Shown here piece after piece: positions 3,897 to 23,344 of a DNA stretch of 35,391 nt (position 1 is the stretch's first letter; each line of letters opens with the position of its first letter). The DNA comes from a virus. The DNA lies in the IMG/VR virus record IMGVR_UViG_3300025292_000113, positions 1-35,391 of that record. One strand, 5' to 3'. A model generated the notes under the pieces. That model was not told the DNA's origin. It saw only the letters and a program-made list of their open reading frames with translations, and made no database searches. The position numbers were made by a program, and so were the translations under genes.

Positions 3897-4949
3897 TCAG
3901 AGTCGCTTGTTCAGAAAGGCCTCGATCTGCGCCGGCGACATGCTTTCCATGGCCAGGTACAGGTCGCTGCCATCCATGCGCGCCATGCGCTCTTGCGGCG
4001 AGAGCCCGTCCGCGCGACCGCCCGGGATACCGGACAGGCTTGCAGGGGGCTCCACACGCGCGGAAGCAGCGGCGGCCGTGGCCGCAGCCTTGTCAGAGGC
4101 TGCGGGCGTAGGAGCTTCTTTGCCGACCTTGGCGAATGCGTCGAAGACCTCGACGATTTCCGCGGCCGTGCTACCCTTGTTGGGGTCGAACAGTTGCCAG
4201 TAGGCGTTGCGAACAGCGCTCGGGTGCGCGTCCACCCAGGCCTTGAACTCCGCGCTCTCCACGATGGAGTCAGCGTTGGGGTGCGCCTTGTAGATCGCGT
4301 CGTAGTGCGCCGTGGCCGCGTCCTGCTGCTGCTTGGCCTGCAGCGGTGCGACGGCCTTGCCGACGTGCACCTCCACCTGCTGTTGCACCAGCTTCGCGAT
4401 GCCGGCGGCGAGCGCCTCTTCCGAGAAATCGCCAAACAGGCTCGCGTCCACGCCCTTCTCGATGGCCGCCTCTGCCGCGGCGACCATGTTGTCGGTCTTG
4501 GTCGGTGCCTGGCCGGCTTCTGCTCGCGCATCAGCCTTTGCCCTGAGGTCCGTCAGCTGGCGCTGCGCCTCCTCTGCCTGAGCCTTCCAGTGCTGTTCGC
4601 CCTGGCGGGCCTTCTCCAGTCGGTCGTAGGGGATGGTGTGCTTGCCGTCCCGCGCCAGCACCACGGCATTCGCGGGGTCGATGACCTCGGCGCCGTCCTT
4701 GGTGCCCGCGCCTTCTGCGCCGGTGGTGGTGGTCTTGCCCGCGTCGGCGGGCTTGGCCTGTTCGTTGTCCGTGGGGGTAGCCGTCGTGGTGCTCGTGCTG
4801 TCCGTCGCAGCGGTGGTCGTGGGCGCGCCACCTGCATCCGGCTTGCCGCCGGTATCGCCCTGTTCCGCCAAGGCAAATGCCTGGGCAGCCTGCTCCGGCG
4901 TCAGTGCGCCGTCGATGCTGTCAAAGAAGTTCTCGTTTGTTGCCGTCAT
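3897..4949 (-). CDS. Capsid scaffolding protein
   Basis: The predicted protein has 350 residues from the ATG at 4949 (MTATNENFFDSIDGALTPEQ). Residues 30-90 are a Thr/Ala/Asp low-complexity linker. Residues 100-140 form a coiled coil rich in Gln, Glu and Ala. A helical middle part and a short Ala/Pro linker lead to a C-terminal helix (SPAQIEAFLNKRL) ending in basic residues, as in scaffolds that dock on the capsid shell. An upstream in-frame extension to 5084 exists but is Pro/Gly-rich and overlaps a strongly structured leader, so I rejected it. An in-frame ATG at 4964 is also possible. The gene is immediately upstream of the capsid gene, matching the usual scaffold-capsid order. Confidence 0.8.
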   Translation of the reverse strand: MTATNENFFDSIDGALTPEQAAQAFALAEQGDTGGKPDAGGAPTTTAATDSTSTTTATPTDNEQAKPADAGKTTTTGAEGAGTKDGAEVIDPANAVVLARDGKHTIPYDRLEKARQGEQHWKAQAEEAQRQLTDLRAKADARAEAGQAPTKTDNMVAAAEAAIEKGVDASLFGDFSEEALAAGIAKLVQQQVEVHVGKAVAPLQAKQQQDAATAHYDAIYKAHPNADSIVESAEFKAWVDAHPSAVRNAYWQLFDPNKGSTAAEIVEVFDAFAKVGKEAPTPAASDKAAATAAAASARVEPPASLSGIPGGRADGLSPQERMARMDGSDLYLAMESMSPAQIEAFLNKRL

Positions 4950-5158
4950 GCTCGTCCGCCACATATCGCCGTGGCCGCTGGGGACATCCGCATTCGGAGC
5001 ACTGGGCAGGGCCGAAGCCCTACCCGGTACACCTCCAGCAGGGGGAGTTCCTCGCACTCTTTCGAGGGAGGTGCCGGCTCTCACGAGCGGGCTGCTTCAC
5101 GATCCGCTCTCGCTTCACGCTTGAGCATGACTTTGCCGGGGTCTCGCTCACTCTCGAA
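4950..5158 (-). ncRNA. Structured leader RNA candidate upstream of the scaffold gene
   Basis: About 210 bp lie between the CCCCCTGTAGGG element and the scaffold start, with no credible gene on this strand. Read on the minus strand it can form several helices: GGGTTTCG with CGAGACCC directly at the presumed 5' end; GCTC-GTGA-GAGC with a GNRA loop; CCTCG with CGAGG; an ACCTCC/GGAGGT outer pairing; and GGGTAGGGC-TTCG-GCCCTGCCC, a 9-bp stem with a UUCG loop. No U-run follows, so it is not a simple terminator. It may be a stabilising or regulatory 5' leader, or a scar of the cargo insertion. The pairings were read by eye only. Confidence 0.4.
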
Positions 5159-5159
5159 A

Positions 5160-5171
5160 CCCTACAGGGGG
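5160..5171 (-). promoter_or_regulatory. CCCCCTRTAGGG element, copy 1 (upstream of scaffold leader)
   Basis: The minus strand reads CCCCCTGTAGGG followed by TTTCG. This is one of four copies in the window, all in the same orientation. Minus-strand genes downstream are the scaffold and the rest of the head operon, which the opposing cargo genes separate from the terminase end. On the plus strand the same bases (AGGGGG, 7 nt before TTG 5179) could act as a ribosome binding site for the ApeA-like gene, so the two readings compete here. Confidence 0.5.
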
Positions 5172-5178
5172 TGCAAAC

Positions 5179-6669
5179 TTGGCAACTGCAGTCGCTGACG
5201 CTGCTAAGGCAAACTCGCCGCTTCAGGCTCGCCTTTCATTTGTCAAACCCATGAAATCGATTCAGCTAGAAGACCGCGGTTTTTTCTGGACCGCTGAAGA
5301 AGCGCTACCGGATGGGGAGGTTCCACCGGGCGCGGTCCCTGGCCTGCTCACAATTGACTCCGAAGGGACAATTCAGCTCGAGCTCGACGGAATGTTTTCG
5401 GGCAGCGGCGACCCTTGGAAAGTCATCCTTGATGACACGAGGGACGACCTCAACGGCCGCACGTTCTTGGGGCTGTTGAAGAAAAGCAGCCAGTACGTCA
5501 AGCTAACCGGGTTGTTCAGAAATGGCGGGTCAGCTCGAAGCCGCGGGATTTCGTATGTGAGCTACCGTGTTGAGATTTGCCTGGTCGCGGGCGGACCGTT
5601 TCCGGACGAGGACCTTGTCAAAGACGTTCGCGAGGTCGAGGTCGATATTGCAGGATTCGAAGACTGGATCAGCCGAGGCGAACTGCAACCCAAGAAAACT
5701 TCTCGCACTCTGAGCGTTAAACACACGACGACCAAGCCCAAGCGCTATCGTCTAGACGACGGAAAGTTGGAGATCCGCTCTGAAGTTTTGGGACCGGCTG
5801 TTCCGCAAATCAGGCGTCACAGCGTAGAGCTCATAACTCGACACTTTATTGCTTGGATCCCTCAACATCCCTTCTCGACGGCTGACGCGATTGAGCGGTA
5901 CAGGATTCTTCAGGACTTGATGATTCTTCTGACCGGCTCCGACCGGCCGCTCGAATGGCCAACAGTCACGTTGGGCAAAAAGCGCCGAGTTGCTACCGCC
6001 TACTTCTACCGAATCGGAGGGAAGGCTGAAGCACCTCGTTGGCATGACCTTTTCACGCTCTTCGACCATGTGGCCCTTCAATTCGGAGAGCTTTATCAGC
6101 GCTTCATAAAGATGCGCCGGGACCTTGGCCCTGGAATCTATCTCTATTTGGCAACCCGCCGAGGCATGACCTTCTACGTCGAACATCGCTTTGCGAGTCT
6201 GATATGGGGTTTAGAGGCACTGCATCGGAGAAGCAAACCACCGCAGGTCACTCCGCTCGACGAAAAGATCGGCCGAATTCTCGGCGACATTCAACTAGAA
6301 AAAGACAAAACCTGGTTACGTAAGAGGCTAGCCCATGCGGGCGAACCGTCACTCGTAGAACGTCTATCCGAGCTTTTTTGCTCCTTACTTTTACCGCTTA
6401 ATGTCGACAAAGACGCGATCAGAAAATTTGCAAAACGATGCGCCGATGTGCGCAATTTGATTTCGCATTTCGGCGGCCGGCGGGATGCGAATAGCGAGTC
6501 ACTCACGACGGAGGCCCATGAGCTGGCCGAGGTGCTCGGATTCATCTATCACCTGTTGCTGCTTCAAGAACTGGGCATTGAATCGCCGCGACTGCGTTCG
6601 CTTCTGTATGACGCCCACTCGACCTTTCGCGCCCGCCACTGGTGCCAGCGGATTGGTCTCCTGCCGTAA
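5179..6669 (+). CDS. ApeA-like anti-phage defence protein (N-terminal ApeA domain plus C-terminal HEPN RNase domain)
   Basis: The product has 496 residues from TTG 5179, or 472 from ATG 5251. The N-terminal part (LEDRGFFWTAEEALPDGEVP, then PGLLTIDSEGTIQLELDGMF) has the 'G.FW' and repeated beta-strand pattern of the ApeA N-terminal domain. The C-terminal helical part carries RNLISH at residues 425-430 (TTG numbering), the RX4H motif of HEPN ribonucleases. ApeA is an experimentally known phage-defence protein, thought to act through HEPN RNA cleavage. TTG 5179 has AGGGGG 7 nt upstream; ATG 5251 starts right at the conserved domain but lacks a ribosome binding site. The gene opposes the late operon and is visibly AT-richer than its neighbours, which marks it as transferred cargo. 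Confidence 0.8.
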   Translation: MATAVADAAKANSPLQARLSFVKPMKSIQLEDRGFFWTAEEALPDGEVPPGAVPGLLTIDSEGTIQLELDGMFSGSGDPWKVILDDTRDDLNGRTFLGLLKKSSQYVKLTGLFRNGGSARSRGISYVSYRVEICLVAGGPFPDEDLVKDVREVEVDIAGFEDWISRGELQPKKTSRTLSVKHTTTKPKRYRLDDGKLEIRSEVLGPAVPQIRRHSVELITRHFIAWIPQHPFSTADAIERYRILQDLMILLTGSDRPLEWPTVTLGKKRRVATAYFYRIGGKAEAPRWHDLFTLFDHVALQFGELYQRFIKMRRDLGPGIYLYLATRRGMTFYVEHRFASLIWGLEALHRRSKPPQVTPLDEKIGRILGDIQLEKDKTWLRKRLAHAGEPSLVERLSELFCSLLLPLNVDKDAIRKFAKRCADVRNLISHFGGRRDANSESLTTEAHELAEVLGFIYHLLLLQELGIESPRLRSLLYDAHSTFRARHWCQRIGLLP

Positions 6670-6810
6670 GACGAAAGGCACGAGTCAGAAGCGGGGGGAC
6701 GGTCGAGTCCATCCTGAAGCAGGCGACCGGCCCACGGCCGTGACGCTATTCGCGATCCTTCGGGCATGCACCTACCCCAACAGATGGGCGTTGTTTGCTA
6801 GGCTCCGGAG

Positions 6811-7476
6811 ATGACCGAACAGAACTTGCCCGACTCCTGGTTCCTTCCTGCTGAGATTGCGATTGCGCGACTCGCCGCACTCTACGGAGGACACGAAGAG
6901 GTTTGGAAGAATGTGGAAGGACGACGTGCTGCTTTCAACACTGTTTGGGAACAGGACTCTGAAGAGTTGGGTCAGGTGCTTCATGCCCATTTGGTCGTGG
7001 AGTTTTTCCTCACGGAGTACCTCCAGCGCCTTCATCCCACATTGGACCTTGACCAACTCCGGCTGCGCTATGAGCAAAAGGTCGGGATGATTCCAAGCAC
7101 CAACGCCCTCCTGTCAAGCTCGAGGCCGGGTCTACGAGCGCTTGGAACAATTCGCAATCGAATGGCCCATGTCAGGCGTGTGCAAATCTCAAAGGATGAC
7201 ATCCAGGCTATCGTTGGAATCGCAATGTATTCGGCCTTCACCAAGGCAGGCGGCACCTTCGATTTGGCACAAGCAAGCCCCAAGGAGGTGGTCATCCACT
7301 TTTCCGAGTGGGTTGCCGGGATGCTTCACAGCGCGGCTGACCCCGACAAACAAAAATGGGCCAAAGCATTTGACCCATCGCAAGACGTTCCGGGCTACGA
7401 GTTCTTCCTGAAGCCACCACCTTCGGATGGTGTCCCTGGTGTGGGTCGAAAGCCCTCCCTTCTCGGCGGCTCCTAG
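6811..7476 (+). CDS. Small HEPN-domain protein, probable partner of the ApeA-like protein
   Basis: The 221-residue protein begins MTEQNLPDSWFLPAEIAIAR. It is all-helical in appearance. A helix HAHLVVEFFLTEYLQRL (residues about 53-70) and IRNRMAH contribute an RX4H motif (R115 ... H120), the signature of HEPN nucleases. The arrangement resembles MAE_28990/Abi-type HEPN proteins, but I cannot assign a subfamily. It lies 141 bp after the ApeA-like gene on the same strand with similarly low GC, so the two probably form one cassette. GGAG abuts the ATG too closely for a normal ribosome binding site, and a TGCTAGGCT extended -10-like string just upstream suggests a short-leader transcript. The gene converges on the portal gene with a 4-bp gap and no terminator. 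Confidence 0.7.
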   Translation: MTEQNLPDSWFLPAEIAIARLAALYGGHEEVWKNVEGRRAAFNTVWEQDSEELGQVLHAHLVVEFFLTEYLQRLHPTLDLDQLRLRYEQKVGMIPSTNALLSSSRPGLRALGTIRNRMAHVRRVQISKDDIQAIVGIAMYSAFTKAGGTFDLAQASPKEVVIHFSEWVAGMLHSAADPDKQKWAKAFDPSQDVPGYEFFLKPPPSDGVPGVGRKPSLLGGS

Positions 7477-7480
7477 TCGC

Positions 7481-9808
7481 TCAGGCTGGCACGTTATCGG
7501 CGGTGCGTGCAGTCTCGATGCCGTCAATACCGCTGGCCCCCTCCGCCGCGCGCGCGGGGAATGTCGGGCTGGTGTTCTCACGCACCGGCAGCGCTGCGCT
7601 CGCCTCCTCCTGCGCGTCGGGCACCACCAGCGCGGGCCCCTCCCCCTGGATGTACGGGTCCTTGATGTTCATGGCCGCCGTCTGCGCCGGCGTCGGGAAG
7701 TTCGGATCGTCGCCGCCCGGCATGGGCCGCTTGTAGCCAGCACCCTGCATGATGGCATCCGCGATGGGCGCGATCATGGGCATCTGCGCCACCTGCGCGC
7801 CACCCTGCATCGCCGCGAAGGCAGCCTGCACGCCCACCTGCACCGCATCCGCCATCAGCTTGCGGATCTCGGCTTCGGTTTTGCGCTCCTTCATGTCCAG
7901 CTCGCGCGCCTTGAGGTCGTTGCCGGCCTTGGCCAGCGCGTCGGCCACGGCCTTCTGGATGCGCTGCTCGACCTGCTCGGGCGACTCCTGCGCCGCCGCG
8001 TTACGCAGGGCCTCCACGAGGGCGCGCTTGAACGGCACGTCCATGAGGCTGGCCAGGAACGGCATGGCCGCGGCCTGGTACTGCGACGGTAGGCTCTTGA
8101 TCGACTCGGACAGCGCGTTGAGCTGCTGGCCGCGGTAGGTCGGCGAGCTCGGCACGTCTTGCAGGCCGACTTGCAGCATGGTGCGCTGCAGGTCGTTGGA
8201 GAGGTAGGGAACGCCGGTGAGCGGGTCCGCCTCTGGCTTGTTGAGCACCACAGTGCGGGCGGGCGTCACGTCGTCGCCCTCGATGACCACCGCGTGCGGG
8301 CTCGAACCGATGTCCTGCACGAGCATCGCCACCAGCATTTCGCCCACCTGGGTGCGCGCCCGCTTCTGGTTGCCCATCATGTGCGCGAGGGACTGGTTGG
8401 CCTGGTCTACCTGGGTCTGCTCCTGCACGCCGCTGTTCGCCGTGCCGCGCCGGCCGGAGAACGCACCCGCGGCCGCCGGGTTGATGCGCTCGATGGCGTT
8501 GCGTGCGTTCTGAAGCTGCTCGAGCTGCTGCGCATTCGCCTGGAAGTCGCGCTTCACCTCGAACTTCGCGCCAGGCTGCGCCATGTGGGCAGCGTTCAAC
8601 ACGATGTCCGCGTCGGGCCGATTGATCGTGCGGCGGAACACATCGTCCGGCATGTCCACCGCGCCCTTGGTGCGCTCAGTGCGATAGGAGCTCATGCCCC
8701 AGCGCAGCCGCGCGTTGCCGTTGTTCAGCGTGTCCTGCTGGTCGATCAGGTTGCGCACGTAGCCGAACGGCACGCCGGTGCCGTCCTCGCGGAACCCCCA
8801 GAACGGCACGTACGGGAAATAGCGGTGCGCGTAGGGGCTGGGGCCATCGAAGAGGACGTGCGGGCCCAGCCAGTAGCTGCGGCGGACCTTGGCTACCGTC
8901 GCGCGCACGAACTGCACGCGCCTGTTGGCCACAGCGAAGACGTGGGCCGGGTTGTTCTCGTCGAACTCCACCACGCGGCCGTCCGGGCTCTTGAGCACGA
9001 TGACATCGGACCACCGCCGGTACCAGAGCTCCGACGCGCACACCTCCCTGTTCATCGGGTTGAACCACCGATCCTCCAGCCGGGTCCACTCGCGCGCGAT
9101 GTCCCACGCCCGGTTCAGGCCCGTGCTGCCACCGCCGTATTGCGTCTCGTCGAACTCCGACCACCAGTTGATGCCCGCTCGGCCGTAGCGGCGGATCAGG
9201 TCCTTGTGGTCGGGGAAGACCCGGGCCAGGCGTGACGGGTGCATCCAGCGCTGACGGCGCAGCCACCGCGCGTCGCTCAGATCGTCCTTCGAGCTGGTCC
9301 AGTCCCAGTGGATCTCGTTGCGGTGAATCACGTTGCACTGGTACGGGTAGTCGAAGGGGTCGGAGTTGCGGCACACCTCCGCCCAACCGATGCCAACGGC
9401 AATCTGCGGATAGAAGGCCCCGCTACAAGCGTCATCGGCCTTGCTCTTGCGCTCGGCCTCGTTGAGCTTGAAGCTGATCGCGTCGGCCACGTCCTGGCCG
9501 CCGGGCTGCCCGTTGGACGTAATGCGCCAGTCGGTTCGGGTGGCCTCCTCGTAGCCGCGGATGCCCTCCAGCGATGCGCCGATCAGGTTCTCCATGGTGG
9601 TCGGGATGCCCTGCGCCTTCATCGCGCGGATGAGCTCAGTGTCGAGCTGGTTGCCGTCGGCGTAGTCCATTTCCCGGTCGGCCGTGCGGCGCCAGGTACG
9701 CGGCTGGTTGTCGATCTCGTCGAGGATGTCGCGGTACTCGGCGAGGGAGAGCGGCACGTCGCCGTCCGGGGTGTCGACGGGGTCGAGGTCGTTGGTCTGG
9801 TTGGTCAT
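7481..9808 (-). CDS. Portal protein (P22-like)
   Basis: The product has 775 residues from ATG 9808 (MTNQTNDLDPVDTPDGDVPL), with AAGGACC upstream. Typical P22-like portal features are visible. There is an N-terminal helical wing (DEIDNQPRTWRRTADREMDY, 'YADGNQLD'). The clip/stem region has the string 'YVPFWGFREDGTGVPFGYVR' and 'LIDQQDTLNNGNARLRW'. A long C-terminal helical barrel (QVEQRIQKAVADALAKAGND) ends in a flexible Pro/Ala tail. It forms the dodecameric DNA-entry ring at one capsid vertex and docks terminase. The gene starts 12 bp after the large terminase. The reading frame is open far upstream, through the terminase gene, but only the part from 9808 is credible. Confidence 0.88.
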   Translation of the reverse strand: MTNQTNDLDPVDTPDGDVPLSLAEYRDILDEIDNQPRTWRRTADREMDYADGNQLDTELIRAMKAQGIPTTMENLIGASLEGIRGYEEATRTDWRITSNGQPGGQDVADAISFKLNEAERKSKADDACSGAFYPQIAVGIGWAEVCRNSDPFDYPYQCNVIHRNEIHWDWTSSKDDLSDARWLRRQRWMHPSRLARVFPDHKDLIRRYGRAGINWWSEFDETQYGGGSTGLNRAWDIAREWTRLEDRWFNPMNREVCASELWYRRWSDVIVLKSPDGRVVEFDENNPAHVFAVANRRVQFVRATVAKVRRSYWLGPHVLFDGPSPYAHRYFPYVPFWGFREDGTGVPFGYVRNLIDQQDTLNNGNARLRWGMSSYRTERTKGAVDMPDDVFRRTINRPDADIVLNAAHMAQPGAKFEVKRDFQANAQQLEQLQNARNAIERINPAAAGAFSGRRGTANSGVQEQTQVDQANQSLAHMMGNQKRARTQVGEMLVAMLVQDIGSSPHAVVIEGDDVTPARTVVLNKPEADPLTGVPYLSNDLQRTMLQVGLQDVPSSPTYRGQQLNALSESIKSLPSQYQAAAMPFLASLMDVPFKRALVEALRNAAAQESPEQVEQRIQKAVADALAKAGNDLKARELDMKERKTEAEIRKLMADAVQVGVQAAFAAMQGGAQVAQMPMIAPIADAIMQGAGYKRPMPGGDDPNFPTPAQTAAMNIKDPYIQGEGPALVVPDAQEEASAALPVRENTSPTFPARAAEGASGIDGIETARTADNVPA

Positions 9809-9819
9809 GGTGGTGGTCC

Positions 9820-11502
9820 TTACACGCAGACAGGCTCGGGGGCCTCCACGTAGCTTCCGTTCTGGGTGAGGCTGCTCAGCAGGTCCAGCTCCTTGGCCTG
9901 GGCCCACTGGCGCAGGGCATCGGCGCCCTCGGTGCATCCATTGCTCTTGTCGGGCTGGTCGAGGAAGCGGTTCTCCGACTGGCTGTACTTCTTCCGGTAG
10001 CCCTGGATGCGCTGCATCCCCTCCTTCGTGCCGTCCAGGTCGAAGAAGGCGCTCTTCATGTGCTTGCGCACGGTGTAGATGCCGGTCATCAGCTCGGTGA
10101 CGCGCGGGACGATGAAGAAGGCCTGACCGGGCAGCAGGAGCTGCAGCTGCTCGCGGGTACTGCGGTTGTAGTCGCCGAGCCGCTTGTGGTCGGCGTCGTG
10201 CGGCAGGAAATGCCCGCCGTACAGGAAGCCGCGGTCTTGAAGGTGCCGCGCGTAATGGCGCAGGTCTTCCTCGTGCTCTTCGTAGTAGCCGATGAAGCGG
10301 TCCTCGCCGCGCAGCACCTGCATGAACCAGATGGCCGTGCCGTCGCTGTTGCCGATGTCCCAGAACGTGTAGACCGGCAGGTCGAGTACTGGCACCTGGC
10401 AGATGCCGCCGCGCTTGCGCAGCAGCACCAGGTCCTTGGCGTAGTAGTGGCCGGCCGTGGACTGTTGGAAGGCCTCTTCGGGCGTCGAGGGGTACTCCTG
10501 CCACATCTTCTCCTCCTTGCCGGAGAAGTCGTTTCGCAGCTTTTCCACGTACCAGGCGCGCTGCCCAAGGTCGATCTTGCACCCGCACGTCTGCTCGATC
10601 TCGTTGAAGTAGTCGTGCTGCTCGTTGCTGATCGGGACGCCGGCCGGGTCCATCGAATACGCCGGGTCTTGCCACCAGGCGTAGAAGTGGAAGCGGTACT
10701 GGCTGGCGGTGAGCTTGGCCGCGGACGCGACCAGCGCCTGGGCGCGCTGGCACATGTCGTAGAACTCGCCTTCGGTGCCCTCGGCCGTGCTCTCGATCAC
10801 CAGGATGCCGGACAGCGGCACCGCCTGTATCGAGCCGGTGACCACTTCGTTCGCCTTCGCCGGGAATTTGGCGCAGATCTTCCCGAACTCGGAAACGTGC
10901 AGGCGGTGAATGGTGCCGCCGCGCACGCTGGTCGCCACGCGGATGCTGCTGTTGTTGTGGCCGAACAGCAGCTCCTTGGTGCTGGCGCGCGCCAACGGGA
11001 AGCGCTCGCGCAGCTCCTCGGGCAGGTGGTCGTATGCGAAGACAACCTTGTCGCGGAAGATGGCCTCGGCCGTCTCGCGGTCCTGGGCGATCATGCCGCA
11101 CCGCTGGTTGCCGTTGAACAGCGCGTGGTCGAGCCAGAGGATGGCGATCAGCGTGGTGAATCCGAGCTGCCGCGCCTTCAGGATGATGTTGCGGTGCCAG
11201 AGCCTGCGAATGAAGCGCTTCTGCGCGCGGTTCGGGATGAAGGGCTGCACGAGGTCGTCGTCGCCTTCGTTCTTCCCCTTCACGATGATCTGGTACAGGC
11301 ACCCGCTGAACAGGCGCCATTCCGGGTCCTGAAGGCACCGCTCGAGCTCCGCCTCGTCCTGCGGCACGTGCGTGGGCGGGATGACCTTGATGCGCTTCAG
11401 GTCGCGCGGCTTGTCGGGCCAGAGCTGGCTGTCGATGGCCGCGCCGCCATGCAGCTCGGGCAGCCAGGCGTCGCGCTCTTCGTCCAGCACCTTGGCGGCC
11501 AT
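9820..11502 (-). CDS. terL: Terminase large subunit
   Basis: The 560-residue protein is the ATPase-nuclease motor that packages DNA. The adenine-binding and Walker A-like region is NRAQKRFIRR ... ILKARQLGFTT (K109-T117). The Walker B-like acidic site is LHVSEFGK (E205 following the hydrophobic strand), and LVIESTAEG (234-242) is the coupling motif. The RNase H-like nuclease starts at FWDIGNSDGTAIWF (D382, D388) and continues at FLPHDADHKR (D436-D438). The length is normal for a two-domain large terminase. The ATG at 11502 lies 2 bp after the small-subunit stop (TGAGCATG), so the pair is coupled. It partners with the portal encoded next. Confidence 0.93.
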   Translation of the reverse strand: MAAKVLDEERDAWLPELHGGAAIDSQLWPDKPRDLKRIKVIPPTHVPQDEAELERCLQDPEWRLFSGCLYQIIVKGKNEGDDDLVQPFIPNRAQKRFIRRLWHRNIILKARQLGFTTLIAILWLDHALFNGNQRCGMIAQDRETAEAIFRDKVVFAYDHLPEELRERFPLARASTKELLFGHNNSSIRVATSVRGGTIHRLHVSEFGKICAKFPAKANEVVTGSIQAVPLSGILVIESTAEGTEGEFYDMCQRAQALVASAAKLTASQYRFHFYAWWQDPAYSMDPAGVPISNEQHDYFNEIEQTCGCKIDLGQRAWYVEKLRNDFSGKEEKMWQEYPSTPEEAFQQSTAGHYYAKDLVLLRKRGGICQVPVLDLPVYTFWDIGNSDGTAIWFMQVLRGEDRFIGYYEEHEEDLRHYARHLQDRGFLYGGHFLPHDADHKRLGDYNRSTREQLQLLLPGQAFFIVPRVTELMTGIYTVRKHMKSAFFDLDGTKEGMQRIQGYRKKYSQSENRFLDQPDKSNGCTEGADALRQWAQAKELDLLSSLTQNGSYVEAPEPVCV

Positions 11503-11504
11503 GC

Positions 11505-12467
11505 TCAGTCCTCGCCTTCCACGTCCTGACGGGGCTGCATGCCGTTCGAGTCGGGCGAACCGGTGGCGGGCGCCTCGGGATCGTCGGCCACAGGTTTGAA
11601 GCCGTTGGCATTCCCATTCGAGATCCGGCGCAGCAGCGAGGCCAGTGGGTCGGTCTTCTGCTGGTTGTCCTTCTCGTAGAGGCCCAGGTGCTTGAAGAGC
11701 TTCTCCGCGAAGGCGGCCTTGTCGTGCATCTGCACCTCGATGCCGTACTTCGTCATCTTGGCGCCGGCGTACAGGGCGCGCGCCGCGGGCGACAGTTGGC
11801 GCGTGTCGGTCAGCACCGTGCGCGGGTAGCCATCGCCACCACAGTCCGGGCAGGCCGGATGCGGTGGCTTGAGCGGATCGAACCCGATGCCGCCCTTCTC
11901 GTCGAAGTCGGCCAGGTTGCCAGCCTTCAGGGCGTGCTGCTCGCGGTCGTGGTTGAACTCGCCCACGGTGCGCTGGAACTTGAACCCTTCGCCCCAGCAG
12001 TGCCGGCAGCAGCCGACCTTGATCTGCACCAGTTCACGCGGGTCGGCGAACACGATGTTCCAAGCCTCCACCACCACGCGATCGGCCTCGATGTGCGTGC
12101 GCGTCTGCTGGGCCTTTCGAGCTTCAGCGATGGCAATCTGGATGTACGGTTTTGACAGGTTCTCCGATGCCATCTGCCGGGCGGTGTCCGGGCTGTAGCC
12201 GGCTCGGATGGCAGCCTGCGTGCCGTTCAGGTCCACGAGGTACTCGTCGACGAAGCGCTGCTGGAGGTCGGTCAGGCCGAGCTGTGCGGGTTCTGCGGCT
12301 GGTGCTGGTGTTGCTGCTCGGGCCGGTCGGGCTGGCTTCTTCGGCTTGGCCGGCGGTGCGGCCTTCTTGCGCGCAGGTGCGCCCGCGGCCTTCTTGGCGG
12401 CTGCGGGCTTGGGGGTGGTCTTCTTCGGTGCGGGTGCCTGCTTCTTGGCCGGCTTGCGTGTTGCCAT
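11505..12467 (-). CDS. terS: Terminase small subunit with histone H1-like N-terminal tail and two DnaJ-type zinc motifs
   Basis: The product has 320 residues. Residues 64-110 (LTDLQQRFVDEYLVDLNGTQ, AAIRAGYSPDTARQMASENL) are the helix-turn-helix of Terminase_2-type small subunits, which recognise the packaging site. Residues 1-60 are almost only Lys, Ala, Pro, Arg and Thr, like histone H1 or AlgP tails. Residues 154-161 (CRHCWGEG) and 206-213 (CPDCGGDG) are CXXCXGXG motifs, probably one zinc site. The protein is about twice the usual small-terminase length because of the tail and the zinc insert. The start codon has no ribosome binding site; a 7-bp inverted repeat directly abuts it. The gene heads the late head operon. 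Confidence 0.85.
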   Translation of the reverse strand: MATRKPAKKQAPAPKKTTPKPAAAKKAAGAPARKKAAPPAKPKKPARPARAATPAPAAEPAQLGLTDLQQRFVDEYLVDLNGTQAAIRAGYSPDTARQMASENLSKPYIQIAIAEARKAQQTRTHIEADRVVVEAWNIVFADPRELVQIKVGCCRHCWGEGFKFQRTVGEFNHDREQHALKAGNLADFDEKGGIGFDPLKPPHPACPDCGGDGYPRTVLTDTRQLSPAARALYAGAKMTKYGIEVQMHDKAAFAEKLFKHLGLYEKDNQQKTDPLASLLRRISNGNANGFKPVADDPEAPATGSPDSNGMQPRQDVEGED

Positions 12468-12504: not shown

Positions 12505-12516
12505 CCCTATAGGGGG
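12505..12516 (-). promoter_or_regulatory. CCCCCTRTAGGG element, copy 2 (upstream of terminase operon)
   Basis: The minus strand reads CCCCCTATAGGG followed by TTCG. The GGG end is 38 nt before the terS ATG, the same distance as copy 4 to its tRNA. It is the only promoter-like element I see before the late head operon. The rest of 12490-12657 holds no credible gene. Confidence 0.55.
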
Positions 12517-13639: not shown

Positions 13640-13926
13640 GCGTCACTCAAAAGAAAGCCCGCCAGGGTGGTCCTGGCGGGCGAACGTGCGGCCGAGGCCG
13701 CGCGAGGAGACAACTGGCCGGCGAAAGCGCCGAGGTCCGGTCCATCCGGCTACGCACGCGATGTGCGCTGGACCGTGCGGTTCTCATCCCGCCCTGAATC
13801 CCCTGGGATGCGCAAGGGGTCATGTGGAGTGGTTTGCCCCCCACTCCAGCGCCAGGGCTGACGCCAAGTTCGGGGACCGTGCTCGGTGCAGGAATGTTCT
13901 CGCTGCCCGCCGACGCGGCGAATCCC
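13640..13926 (-). ncRNA. Candidate structured small RNA or attenuated leader upstream of the Ntn-hydrolase gene
   Basis: This is most of the 377-bp gap between the divergent Ntn and DUF72 genes. From the CCCCCTGTAGGG element (GGG at 13926-13924) the minus strand runs through several possible hairpins: CGCCG-CGT-CGGCG, TGGAGTGG with CCACTCCA, GGTCCA enclosing GCGCAC/GTGCGT and closing with TGGACC, and GCGGCC-TC-GGCCGC. It ends in a clear intrinsic terminator. Two ORFs of 65 and 67 codons cross it but look like chance Arg/Pro-rich frames. A transcript here would be about 280 nt. It would either be a stand-alone RNA or a leader whose terminator controls the Ntn gene. Confidence 0.4.
13646..13681 (-). 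terminator. Rho-independent terminator, minus strand
   Basis: A perfect 10-bp stem GCCCGCCAGG / CCTGGCGGGC with a 5-nt loop (ACCAC on the minus strand) is followed by TTTCTTTT. It lies 62 bp upstream of the Ntn-hydrolase start, so it stops minus-strand transcripts before that gene. On the plus strand no U-run follows the stem. Confidence 0.75.
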
Positions 13927-13935
13927 TACAGGGGG
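13924..13935 (-). promoter_or_regulatory. CCCCCTRTAGGG element, copy 3 (between DUF72 and Ntn genes)
   Basis: The minus strand reads CCCCCTGTAGGG followed by ATTCG. The element points toward the structured region and the Ntn gene, and lies 26 bp upstream of the divergent DUF72 start. A CCCATTATGGG palindrome sits between it and the DUF72 ATG. Confidence 0.5.
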
Positions 13936-15404: not shown

Positions 15405-15481
15405 TGGTGCCGCCAGCATGGATTCGAACCCGCGACCTGTCCCTTACAGGGGGAATGCTCTGCCGACTGAGCTATGGCGGC
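15405..15481 (-). tRNA. tRNA-Thr(TGT)-like gene with aberrant anticodon loop and T stem
   Basis: The gene is 77 nt. The acceptor stem GCCGCCA/TGGCGGC pairs perfectly, the discriminator is A and CCA is encoded. The D arm GCTC...GAGC is normal. The anticodon arm is TTCCC-CCTGTAA-GGGAC, giving anticodon TGT (Thr). However, position 33 is C instead of the near-universal T, and pair 27-43 is mismatched. The T loop TTCGAAT is normal, but its stem (GCGGG against CCATG plus one extra C) has only two of five pairs. It is either a decayed tRNA or a specialised or decoy one. It lies 25 bp upstream of the NinX-like gene. Confidence 0.7.
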
Positions 15482-15691: not shown

Positions 15692-16215
15692 CGTTCGAAC
15701 TTTGCCCCGTTGGCCGCCGTAGCGCCCGCCCTACAGGGGGTAGCGAACAGCTGCCCCTGGTTCGGATCGACGCGCACCTCCAGCGCCGTGACCTGGCGGC
15801 GGAGACGCTTGACCTCCTCGCCCAACTCGGCCGCGAGGAGCGCGGTGTTCCGGCCCGTCTCGATTGCGGCGGCCTGAGCGGCGGCACCGGCCATCAGGTT
15901 TGCCAGCGCGCGGTCTTCGCGCGGCGTGAGCGTGAGCACCTCGTCGCCGATCTCGATCTTCACGGTGCCGTCGGGCATCACGGTCTTGGACATGGGCCGC
16001 GCGGGCGCATGCCGCACCGCCGGCACGAACACGCCGCGCTGCACGCGCACGATGTCGCCCTCGTCCACCAGGACGCCGAGGCGGTCGTCGATGGTGGTGA
16101 GCTTCAGGCCGGTGAGCTCGGCCAGCGTCTCGCGGGTTACCACCTGCTCCTGGGCGTGCAGATCTTGCACAGCCTCCAGCACCACCAGCAGGGTTGATTT
16201 TTGGGCTTCAGCCAT
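15682..16215 (-). CDS. Winged-helix DNA-binding phage protein (candidate regulator)
   Basis: The product has 177 residues from ATG 16215 (MAEAQKSTLLVVLEAVQDLH), chosen because GAGGAG lies 6 nt upstream. Residues 15-65 (VVTRETLAELTGLKLTTIDD, then RLGVLVDEGDIVRVQRGVFV) form a clear winged helix-turn-helix. A beta segment (PDGTVKIEIGDEVLTLTPRE) and a C-terminal coiled coil (LAAELGEEVKRLRRQVTALE) follow. Many phages of this type carry such a gene near the end of the early operon. Because it precedes the late genes it is a candidate late-gene activator, but that is inference. One CCCCCTRTAGGG element lies inside its last codons, and its stop codon lies inside the tRNA-Met gene. Confidence 0.75.
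   Translation of the reverse strand: MAEAQKSTLLVVLEAVQDLHAQEQVVTRETLAELTGLKLTTIDDRLGVLVDEGDIVRVQRGVFVPAVRHAPARPMSKTVMPDGTVKIEIGDEVLTLTPREDRALANLMAGAAAQAAAIETGRNTALLAAELGEEVKRLRRQVTALEVRVDPNQGQLFATPCRAGATAANGAKFERAV
15729..15740 (-). promoter_or_regulatory. CCCCCTRTAGGG element, copy 4 (upstream of the tRNAs, within the wHTH gene)
   Basis: The minus strand reads CCCCCTGTAGGG followed by CGGGCG. The GGG end is 38 nt before the 5' end of tRNA-Met, the same spacing as copy 2 to the terS ATG. Unlike the other copies it lies in coding sequence and lacks the TTCG that follows the core elsewhere. Confidence 0.5.
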
Positions 16216-19730: not shown

Positions 19731-20707
19731 GCGGGTACTCCTTGTCGTTGCTCCACCGCCCGGCGGACGCGGGCCGTGTATTGCGGGAACGTTTCGCGGT
19801 CGGCGCTCAGGTCGTGCTCGTTCCATCGGCCCAGGCCGAGTTCCTCTCCCTTCGCTTCGATGGTCGAGCGGTTCTCGTCCCAGGGCTTCTCGGGCATGCC
19901 GGCGCCGGACGCGATGGCCGCAGCCTCGCCGAGCTGACGCTTGACGATGCCCAGCAGGTAGGCGAAGCCCTTGGGCGGCTTGGACTTCGCAGCGATGTCG
20001 GCAGCGGCCTCGAAGGTTTCGACGGGCACGCCCTTGTCGATGAGCGCCAGCAGCTCGGGACTCGACGGGTTCACGTCCGCGATGCCTTTGCTGCGCATGG
20101 CCTTGCATGCCTCCCCGGCTTTCGTCGGGCTTTGCCGATCACCCCCCACCGATCCGGACGTAGTTCGGGAAGTGGTGGTGGTTTCTTCTTTACTGGTACT
20201 GGTACTGGTTCCGGTTCTGGTTCCGGTGTCGTCTCTCCCGGTGTCATTCCGGGTGTCGTCCTGCTGGTGTCCGCCGGTTGTCCCGTGGGACAAATCCGGA
20301 TCACCACTGGTGTCCGATCTGCGCTCCGCCTCCTTCCGCTGGCGGTACTCCGCCTTCCGGCGACGCTCCGCCTCGCGGGCGGCCAGCATTTCCAGGACGC
20401 GCTTCGTCACGGTGTCGTGGTACAGGCGGCCGTCCTCGGCCGCCCACCAGCCGCGCATCAGCTTGGAGCGCACCTTGGCGAACGTCTTCATGGGCATGCC
20501 GATGCGCACGGCGATGAGCTCGTCTTCGTTGGGCAGCGAGCCGCACGGTTCCTGGCGCCAGGCCGTGACCCAAAGCATCAGCAGCCACGGCTTCACGTCC
20601 GCAGGCGCCAGCGCCCAGGTGTCCGACTGCTCGATGCGCTCGTGGTCCAGCTCGAAGCGCCAGCCCTTCGCACGGGTGTCTGCAGGATAGGGAACAGGTC
20701 GCGTCAC
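19727..20707 (-). CDS. DUF1376-type replication protein
   Basis: The product has 326 residues from GTG 20707 (VTRPVPYPADTRAKGWRFEL), which overlaps the methyltransferase stop by GTGA. The N-terminal domain (SDTWALAPADVKPWLLMLWV ... PNEDELIAVRIGMPMKTFAK) matches DUF1376-like winged-helix domains found at the position of phage replication initiators. A basic helix (AAREAERRRKAEYRQRKEAE), a low-complexity Asp/Thr/Gly/Ser linker and a C-terminal part with GFAYLLGIVKRQL follow. It probably starts phage DNA replication or loads the host helicase. The linker is encoded by short DNA repeats that could be the origin. Confidence 0.7.
   Translation of the reverse strand: MTRPVPYPADTRAKGWRFELDHERIEQSDTWALAPADVKPWLLMLWVTAWRQEPCGSLPNEDELIAVRIGMPMKTFAKVRSKLMRGWWAAEDGRLYHDTVTKRVLEMLAAREAERRRKAEYRQRKEAERRSDTSGDPDLSHGTTGGHQQDDTRNDTGRDDTGTRTGTSTSTSKEETTTTSRTTSGSVGGDRQSPTKAGEACKAMRSKGIADVNPSSPELLALIDKGVPVETFEAAADIAAKSKPPKGFAYLLGIVKRQLGEAAAIASGAGMPEKPWDENRSTIEAKGEELGLGRWNEHDLSADRETFPQYTARVRRAVEQRQGVPA
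20181..20265. repeat. Iteron-like repeat cluster inside the replication gene (candidate origin)
   Basis: Minus-strand units GACGACACC (two copies, one followed by CGG and one by GG), GGAACCAG (two copies) and TACCAG (two adjacent copies) lie together and are followed by an A-rich TAAAGAAGAAACC stretch. They encode the Asp/Thr/Gly/Ser linker of the DUF1376 protein. In lambda the origin iterons likewise lie inside gene O. The repeats may equally be just low-complexity coding sequence. Confidence 0.35.
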
Positions 20708-22641
20708 GCAGCCAGCCTTTCCTGCGCGTGGCCGAAGTCGCTGTAGTTCGCTGCCACCAGCAAGCGCATCGGCAGCGGGCTGACGGAGTTGCCGCACATG
20801 CGCACCTGCGCTGTCTTCGTGAGCACCTTCCCGCTCGCAGTGCGGTCGATGGTGTAGTTGCCCGGGAAGTCCTGAGCGTTGTAGAGCTCCCGCGGCGTGA
20901 GCATGCGCAGGCAGATGTCCACGATGACCCACGGTTCGCCCTTGAGCCACACTGTGACCAGCGCCAGCCGGTCGTGCGTGGTGATGGTGGTGGCCGGCTC
21001 GCGCAGGTCGGCCCACTGGCCGCCCGAGGCGTGATAGCGCATCAGAAACGCCGCGCAGCGCAGCGCACCCTCTTCGTGCTCTTTACCCAGGTGGTACTCG
21101 ACCAGCGCCTGGTGCTCGCCGCCGGCTGAGATTGTGGTCAGCGGTTCTCGGGCATCGCGGCCCTCGCTGTTGCGGCGCAGCGTGGTCAAGTGCGCGGTGA
21201 TGAGCTGCTGCTGGCTACCGGTGGTCGTCACAGCCGAAACCGATTCGCGCATGTCGCGCGCGTGCGTCTTGTTGAAGCCGCCATTGGCCTGAACCATGAA
21301 CGCTGTGGCGAGGCTCTGTCCACCACCGCTGGCAGTGATCGTGCCCAGCGAGCCCTCAATGTCGTTCGCGCCATGGCTCCAGCGCTTCCCGCCGTCCTTT
21401 CCCTCGCCGTGACCGGCCTGCACGAGGTATGCCGTTGTCAGGCCATGCTTCTTCCCGCCTGCGGTGACGGTGCCGAGCGCCTGCTGCAGGTCGAGCACGC
21501 GGGGCGCCTGGCCCTCGCGTTCTCCGTAGCCCATTTGCACCAGCACAGCCGCAGCCAGTGCCGTCTCGCCGCCCTTGGCGGTAGTGATGGTGCGCTGCGG
21601 CTGCTGCACGTCGTAGGCGGTGTCACGCGAATGGGTCACAGGAACCGGCGTGGGCGCCAGCAGCATCTTGTGCCCACCAGTCAGCACCGGCCCGATGGGC
21701 TCCGACACTGGCCGCGGCACGTTGTTCGCCATGTTGTTGACGATGAACGGCTCCGGGCAATCCAGCACGAACTTGCGCATGCCATGGGCGATGCGGCGCA
21801 TGGTGGCGTCGGCGAGCGGCTTCTTCCGGTTGAAGATGCTCTGCCCCTCGATGCTCCAGTTGATGCAGTCGGCCGCCGGGCGGTGGGCCTTCAGCTTGCC
21901 CTTCGGCTTCTTCGCGTGCGTTTTCTCCGGCCACACGATGGGCAGCCCGTCGCAACGCGCGATCATGTAGAGGCGTGTGCGCGTGCTGTGCGCGCCGTAG
22001 TCGGCGTTGCAGATGACGCGCCATTGCACGACGTAGCCCATCGCGCGCAGGCCTTCGACGAAGTGCTTCCAGTTGCGGCCGAGCTTCGTCTTGTCCGGCA
22101 CCAGGAACTGACGGTGCCGCGGCACGTACTCGCCTGGGTTCGCGACGCGAAAGGTCTTCCGCTTCGTCACCGGGTCGACCACTTCGTCGAGCGTCACCAC
22201 GCGGCCCGTTTCGGGATCTCGTTTCGCGATGAGCGGCGACCACTGCAGCATCTGCTCGACGTTCTCGAGCGTGATGACATCCGGTCGCACCTTGCCGGCC
22301 CAGCGATGCACTACCCACGCCAACGCGCGAATCTTCTTTGAGCGCGGTTGCCCGCCCTTCGCTTGGCTGTGGTCGGTGCAGTCGGGCGAGGCATGCAGCA
22401 GGCCCACCTGCTGGCCCTTCACCACTGCAAGCGGGTCCACTTCCCAGACATCGGCACGGTAGTGCCGGGTCTGCGGGTGGTTGATCTCGTGCATGCCGAT
22501 GGCGTCGGCATCGTGGTTGACGGCGATATCTACGTGCCTGCCGATTGCCTGCTCGATGCCCGTGCTGGCACCACCGCCACCGGCAAAGAGATCGATCACC
22601 AGCTTCGCGGACAGCGCGAGAACGAATTGAGGGGTCAGCAT
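20704..22641 (-). CDS. DNA cytosine-5 methyltransferase
   Basis: The product has 645 residues from ATG 22641 (MLTPQFVLALSAKLVIDLFA). Motif I is DLFAGGGGAS (17-26). The catalytic loop is ASPDCTDHSQAKGG (C88), with Asp where most enzymes have Pro. Motif VI is TLENVEQ (124-130), motif VIII is STRTRLYMIA, motif IX is RMLTPRELYNAQDFP, and motif X is MCGNSVSPLP. Between VIII and IX an enlarged target-recognition region holds at least five repeats of the kind 'TITxxGG...L.TA.LVQ' (for example LGTVTAGGKKHGLTTAYLVQ, LGTITASGGGQSLATAFMVQ). It probably protects phage DNA from host restriction. The frame is open further upstream, but the start overlapping the previous stop by 7 bp is the credible one. 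Confidence 0.9.
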   Translation of the reverse strand: MLTPQFVLALSAKLVIDLFAGGGGASTGIEQAIGRHVDIAVNHDADAIGMHEINHPQTRHYRADVWEVDPLAVVKGQQVGLLHASPDCTDHSQAKGGQPRSKKIRALAWVVHRWAGKVRPDVITLENVEQMLQWSPLIAKRDPETGRVVTLDEVVDPVTKRKTFRVANPGEYVPRHRQFLVPDKTKLGRNWKHFVEGLRAMGYVVQWRVICNADYGAHSTRTRLYMIARCDGLPIVWPEKTHAKKPKGKLKAHRPAADCINWSIEGQSIFNRKKPLADATMRRIAHGMRKFVLDCPEPFIVNNMANNVPRPVSEPIGPVLTGGHKMLLAPTPVPVTHSRDTAYDVQQPQRTITTAKGGETALAAAVLVQMGYGEREGQAPRVLDLQQALGTVTAGGKKHGLTTAYLVQAGHGEGKDGGKRWSHGANDIEGSLGTITASGGGQSLATAFMVQANGGFNKTHARDMRESVSAVTTTGSQQQLITAHLTTLRRNSEGRDAREPLTTISAGGEHQALVEYHLGKEHEEGALRCAAFLMRYHASGGQWADLREPATTITTHDRLALVTVWLKGEPWVIVDICLRMLTPRELYNAQDFPGNYTIDRTASGKVLTKTAQVRMCGNSVSPLPMRLLVAANYSDFGHAQERLAA

Positions 22642-23030
22642 GCGGCGCCCCCTTCCATCGAGGGGTCGTTCGCCGCCGCCGCGCGGCCACGGCCGACCGC
22701 CTTGGTGATGCGGAACTCGAACAGCCCCGCGAAGGCCGGGTTCAGCAGCGCGAACAGGCGCGCCAGGTACGGGGTGTGCCAGTCGTTGAGCTTCCACGGG
22801 CCGCCGTGCTCGGCCAGCGCGGAGTTGTGGCGCAGCACCTCGATGATGGTGCGGGCGCTGTAGTGCTCGAAGCCACGGCGAACCACCCGCATCGTCTCGC
22901 GCTCGAAGGCGTCGTAGACGTGGAGGTTCTCGGGCAGGTACGCGAGGAATCGTGGCGTGAACTGGTCGGCGTGCTGCTGGGCCATCAGCAGCGGCCGCTG
23001 CACGGGCGGACCGGGGATCGCGGCGGCCAT
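22635..23030 (-). CDS. Hypothetical conserved phage protein
   Basis: The 131-residue protein has a well-defined central block: FTPRFLAYLPENLHVYDAFE, then HYSARTIIEVLRHNSALAEH and NDWHTPYLARLFALLNPAFA. I recognise this block as common in early regions of Pseudomonas and Burkholderia phages but know of no function. It begins on the last base of the previous stop (TGATG) and overlaps the methyltransferase start by 7 bp. The N- and C-terminal tails are low in complexity. Confidence 0.7.
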   Translation of the reverse strand: MAAAIPGPPVQRPLLMAQQHADQFTPRFLAYLPENLHVYDAFERETMRVVRRGFEHYSARTIIEVLRHNSALAEHGGPWKLNDWHTPYLARLFALLNPAFAGLFEFRITKAVGRGRAAAANDPSMEGGAAC

Positions 23031-23344
23031 CAGTGGTGCCCTCCCCGCTGCGCGAATTCGGGGCCCTCAAAAGGCCCTGCCAGTTTGCGCAGAGCGCCGA
23101 TACGCTCCTCCTCATGCAACAGCTTCTCCGCCGCCATCGCACGCCACGTCTTGCCGTAGCAGGTCAGGTACACAAAGTCGCGCAGCAGCGTGCTCGCGTC
23201 GGTACCGCTCAGGGCGCAGTGCTGCCGGAATACCTTGTCAGTCGCCTCGTCAACCTTGGTCTTCAGGTCTTCGGTCAGCTTGCCGAGGGGCCCGGCGATG
23301 CCGCGGGCGAAGGCCGGCTCTTGGTCTTGGTCGATGGTGGACAT
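23030..23344 (-). CDS. Hypothetical early phage protein
   Basis: The 104-residue protein begins MSTIDQDQEPAFARGIAGPL. It is helical, with VFRQHCALSGTDASTLLRDF in the middle, a pattern reminiscent of ribbon- or helix-type DNA-binding phage proteins, but no confident family. It shares one base with the following start. The ribosome binding site is weak. Confidence 0.6.
   Translation of the reverse strand: MSTIDQDQEPAFARGIAGPLGKLTEDLKTKVDEATDKVFRQHCALSGTDASTLLRDFVYLTCYGKTWRAMAAEKLLHEEERIGALRKLAGPFEGPEFAQRGGHH

Follow-up and report, generated by a model that had tools for sequence, protein, structure and literature searches.

Two adjacent genes, each coding for a protein with an RX4H motif, lie within the head genes of a virus. 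The stretch of DNA analysed, here called the window, is a 35,391 bp IMG/VR virus record. Both genes are located on the plus strand, 141 bp apart. A sequence-only reading assigned the first (gene 1) to ApeA and the second (gene 2) to a short HEPN protein, and proposed that together they form a bipartite ApeA-HEPN defence system. Is the pair one system, or are these independent genes that happen to share a site?

The phage and its two HEPN genes

The minus strand of the window encodes the small and large terminase subunits, the portal, a protein in scaffold position (phrog_479), the major head protein and additional virion genes. On the plus strand lie a CI-type repressor, Erf-like and RecE-like recombination genes and an integrase. 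The terminase shares 66% identity with those of the Pseudomonas phages 8P and F116, and among relatives whose host is named, the best match is a prophage of Variovorax sp. SG517 (TerL 92%, portal 90%). The window is therefore an F116-like temperate podophage, and its host is probably Variovorax-like. At the distal end of the late region, a DNA methyltransferase of ~800 aa (phrog_116) is encoded (20704-23142, minus strand).

The gene pair occupies a slot (5172-7480) between a scaffold-side sequence element and the portal stop. On one side lie the scaffold-position protein (3897-5084, minus strand; start possibly internal) and the major head protein. The other side holds the terminase and the portal (phrog_156; 7481-9814, minus strand), which forms the C-terminal end of a longer open reading frame (7481-11617) and aligns with its relatives. 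The GC content is 0.557 in the slot versus 0.659 in the remaining window. These flank assignments and GC values confirm the described setting between scaffold and portal, in an orientation opposite to the late genes and with a low GC content. The view of both genes as foreign cargo within the head module of this temperate phage is supported.

Gene 1 (5179-6669, plus strand) encodes 496 aa, with an N-terminal ApeA_NTD1 domain and a C-terminal HEPN domain carrying the motif RNLISH (R425 to H430). The Pfam match starts at residue 34, so that the in-frame ATG at 5251 is as good a start as the TTG at 5179. The N-terminal domain matches ApeA_NTD1 (PF18862) with an E-value of 7e-20 (72 bits, cut-off 25.5) and the C-terminal domain HEPN_Apea (PF18739) with an E-value of 7e-14 (52.8 bits, cut-off 24.4). 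PADLOC returned Cas13-ApeA models (E 1e-19) and also PDC-S58. R425, N426 and H430 are invariant across the ApeA alignment. Gene 1 is thus what it was taken for, a member of the already known defence family ApeA. It has both domains and the RX4H motif in common with known ApeA, and its relatives are likewise stand-alone, e.g. the solo genes on Methylocella and Thiothrix plasmids. It differs in its location in a podophage structural module, and the nearest homologues found share only ~35% identity. A collection of annotated phages contained no relatives of this ApeA or of gene 2.

Gene 2 (6811-7476, plus strand; ATG start) encodes 221 aa with the motif RNRMAH (R115 to H120). As a single query it matched no family in Pfam or PADLOC, and single-protein scans of IMG/VR and of genomes recovered only a near-copy of the window. 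An alignment of the core motif, including a homologue from an Acinetobacter plasmid, revealed seven more viral loci and 16 genome loci, ranging from Variovorax to Bacteroidales and Acidobacteria. The majority of these homologues are located outside F116-like phages. Invariant in the 22-member alignment are L57, H60, L61, E64, K90, R115, N116 and H120; the RN-x3-H motif is constant at identities down to ~18-25%. Divergence by codon position follows the order 2<1<3, the pattern expected under protein constraint. With the Pfam and PADLOC matches of gene 1 and the invariant residues of gene 2, both open reading frames are intact, real and non-random. Gene 2 shares 56-57% identity with its counterpart in the Variovorax SG517 prophage, though the portals are 90% identical; either an exchange took place or its divergence was far more rapid than that of the genes around it. 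It is as distant from a chromosomal Variovorax copy as from this prophage copy. Four chromosomal relatives (L107, L111, L113, L114) are surrounded by small unrelated genes resembling integron cassettes, and a GTTAGGC sequence occurs upstream in L102. The 'integron cassette HEPN' (PDB 3jrt, PMC3710099) was absent from the results of the gene 2 profile search.

Among solved structures, the best candidate relative in that profile search was HepS, at a weak E-value of 4e-4 with the RNxxxH residues aligned. An AlphaFold2 model of gene 2 reached a pLDDT of 86 with the family alignment and 42 without an alignment. In a structural comparison by VIA-align, the 15 best matches all belonged to the HEPN superfamily (Z 9.7-5.0) and unrelated structures appeared from 4.6, all values being below 13, a range in which helical folds reach middling Z by chance according to the warning of the tool. 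YggD and MtlR scored 9.7-9.0, HepS 8.6, Csm6 8.0, the sacsin HEPN domain 7.6 and the HepT type 6.4. Foldseek E-values were weak (HepS 0.53), and a viral fold library yielded no matches to the model. Motif, profile and predicted fold support gene 2 as a short HEPN protein, as had been suggested. It represents a new family within the known HEPN superfamily, for which neither Pfam nor PADLOC holds a model. PDB titles assign HepS to the Gifsy-1 prophage and describe its structure together with the lambda J tail tip (9oij, 9oik). HepS and gene 2 are both prophage-borne single HEPN proteins of ~210-220 aa, with a structural match over 144 residues; they differ in sequence (13% identity), and gene 2 originates from a podophage.

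Directly upstream of the gene 2 start lies a conserved box, TTTGCTAGGCTC (6794-6805, plus strand). In 1.63 Mb of collected loci, the 12-base pattern TTTG[AC]TAG[GT]CTC was found exclusively upstream of gene 2 orthologues and their duplicate loci, namely in the window, the Variovorax SG517 prophage, L054 and the Variovorax chromosome L100. The chromosomal copy has the box though it lies outside any F116-like phage. This suggests that gene 2 moves together with an expression signal of its own. The sequence of the box resembles an extended -10 element and would be compatible with a leaderless start. A sigma-70 scan of the slot detected no promoters, so the box is regarded as a conserved motif and not as a proven promoter.

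The portal-scaffold interval in related phages

In blastn comparisons, homology on the scaffold side stops at 5171-5177 in seven related contigs with other cargo (L022, L023, L025, L026, L027, L028, L059). On the portal side it stops between 7484 and 7547, near the portal stop; the homology of L026 extends through gene 2. From 210 portal relatives, 80 were collected, and the scaffold was located in 74 loci including two named phages. The portal-scaffold distance ranged from 73 to 3871 bp, with 26 of the 74 intervals at 310 bp or less, and 38 distinct fillings were counted. Among them are ApeA, GmrSD/HEC-06 (L027), a D12 methyltransferase accompanied by an AAA ATPase (L023, which shares its metagenome of origin with the near-copy of the window), a PIN protein (L063) and an ISL3 transposase (L087). 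Fillings on the late strand comprise an AAA_15/21 ATPase (L025), PDC-S31 (L022), NsnA (L076), PDC-S60 (L088) and genes with a C-terminal Tad2-like domain (L022, L026, L054, L056, L057, L072). The Tad2-like domain (PF11195) was confirmed in L026/L013 and L056/L014, and the others were identified by tblastn. These genes are candidate Thoeris anti-defence cargo; Phage_gp49_66 genes often follow them. A strand rule, placing defence genes antisense and anti-defence genes on the late strand, was rejected on account of the PADLOC-type cargo on the late strand.

A literature search found no description of a portal-scaffold hotspot in F116-like phages. The site adds a new example to a type already known. 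Like the defence hotspots of P2 and P4 (PMC9122126), it is a fixed backbone site at which the defence genes differ between isolates; it differs in its portal-scaffold position and in carrying Tad2-like genes too. Further defence and anti-defence genes may be harvested from such intervals by reading their contents.

The scaffold-side homology break coincides exactly with the element CCCCCTGTAGGG (5160-5171, minus strand), located upstream of the scaffold. Its pattern, CCCCYTRTARGG, had 114 matches on the late strand and none on the opposite strand of 82 loci; in 34 of 74 loci, a copy lay no more than 400 bp upstream of the scaffold match. It is often found upstream of the scaffold and of late-strand cargo. 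Before gene 2 it is degenerate in the window and intact in the Variovorax prophage and L054, both of which carry a Tad2-like gene. The submitters of LKA5 annotated the element as terminators. It may be a promoter, a terminator arm or an exchange boundary. In the window, copies are found at 5160-5171, 12505-12516, 13924-13935, 15442-15453 and 15729-15740, and one adjoins a tRNA-like stretch near 15442. In F116-like phages, the element is mainly found in the gaps separating late units and at the borders of cargo.

Two modules or one system

Apart from the window, only one IMG/VR contig carries both genes, L020. Over 15,122 bp it matches the window at 100% identity and consequently represents the same phage rather than a further case of the pair. 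At the same site, three other F116-like phages (L026/L013, L054, L056/L014) carry gene 2 without ApeA. In these, gene 2 lies by the portal and other genes lie toward the scaffold, the late-strand neighbour of gene 2 being the Tad2-like gene. No ApeA was detected near the gene 2 family at any of 16 genome loci, including the Variovorax chromosome (up to 6 kb on each side), or at any of five satellite loci. In 399 genomes of one order, five had matches to the gene 2 family and two had matches to the ApeA of gene 1, with no overlap.

The tempting two-part reading therefore has to be corrected. A bipartite system, in which gene 2 would control, pair with or neutralise ApeA, would account for the adjacency, the common strand, the short spacing, the equally low GC and the presence of RX4H in both proteins. 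Against it stand the failure of the pair to recur at any second independent locus, the occurrence of gene 2 without ApeA at this site and elsewhere, the solo ApeA relatives and the private box upstream of gene 2. The pair as one system was rejected for this absence of co-occurrence, which had been named beforehand as the test, and a bipartite system is very improbable. For gene 2 as a regulator or antitoxin of ApeA, the unlinked genes elsewhere and the separate box give no support. The two proteins could nevertheless interact functionally in the window phage.

Since the slot exchanges many defence and anti-defence genes in related phages, the pair is read as neighbouring cargo. The preferred explanation, held at a probability of about 0.7, is that genes 1 and 2 are separate, self-contained, single-gene putative HEPN RNase defence modules, which adjoin in a hotspot of an F116-like temperate podophage. 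Both genes would be expressed in the lysogen, each from its own promoter, and both proteins, after being triggered, would block superinfecting phages through RNA cleavage. The trigger of ApeA is probably deoxydinucleotides from degraded DNA; a preprint in the reference list of PMC13405049 gives deoxydinucleotides as its activator in the title. Gene 2 probably responds to a phage component sensed directly, as for HepS and Tha; by analogy, this is the most economical guess. Four phages suggest an order of acquisition. As the relatives have gene 2 by the portal and a Tad2-like gene where ApeA now sits, the slot was probably first occupied by gene 2 or a relative, and ApeA would later have replaced the late-strand Tad2-like gene behind it.

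Other roles of gene 2 have to be weighed against that of a defence nuclease. As a non-nuclease regulator or RNA-binding protein with a HEPN fold, it might act e.g. as a late-gene regulator or a superinfection factor. YggD and MtlR are the top fold matches by Z, HEPN folds are known in non-nuclease regulators such as MtlR, itself classed as HEPN (PMC3710099), and in F116-like phages gene 2 always adjoins the portal and faces the late genes. However, the RX4H motif has been lost from many members of the MtlR family (PMC3710099), whereas R, N and H are invariant in 22 homologues of gene 2; most homologues reside outside F116-like phages, and a regulatory role is unlikely. Slightly less probable still is a toxin with its antitoxin nearby. 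HEPN toxins are common in toxin-antitoxin pairs (PMC3710099), and the homologues in P4-like satellites follow a conserved gene of 275-285 aa with overlapping or nearly touching ends; yet no MNT nucleotidyltransferase or other constant partner was found in the window, where ApeA and the portal are the neighbours, in the F116-like phages or at the inspected genome loci.

A further proposal concerns control and is compatible with the two-module explanation as a possible addition. In a noncontiguous operon like that of Tha, antisense late transcription would silence both genes at induction and spare the phage from self-attack. Tha, from S. aureus prophages, is likewise a prophage HEPN RNase gene with an RX4H motif and antisense to the lytic-phase transcript (PMC11087260), the arrangement of both genes in the late operon here. 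Unlike gene 2, it has an extra N-terminal region, and it is accompanied by an overlapping antisense inhibitor, while the antisense frames present in the window are indistinguishable from chance. Defence-type slot cargo is also encoded on the late strand (L025, L022, L076, L088), and the conserved element before the scaffold suggests a separate transcription unit; silencing by late read-through is thus uncertain, and this control is a minor possibility, a better prospect than either alternative role of gene 2.

With odds somewhat short of even, gene 2 may further define a mobile family of HEPN defence proteins that has not been described before, acting as a stand-alone sensor-nuclease in phages and chromosomes and joined by the 275-285 aa partner in P4-like satellites, and the slot may be an undescribed F116-like hotspot in which defence and Tad2-like anti-defence genes interchange. 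Such a small HEPN family would have been overlooked by current defence models. The satellite pair is a candidate two-gene defence system. A search of E. coli genomes found no near copy of it, and the fold of the partner found no support in Pfam or PDB. An assignment of the partner as an Ntn hydrolase (proteasome/HslV type), considered for its M-T start, was dropped after a PDB profile search gave no support. The partner lies directly upstream of the gene 2 homologue, with an invariant T2 and an ATDSRL motif, and an integrase is adjacent. The pairs are located at 5022-6411 in L015, 5018-6411 in L016, 614-1949 in L017, 3567-4933 in L018, 3231-4597 in L019 and 5018-6411 in L103.
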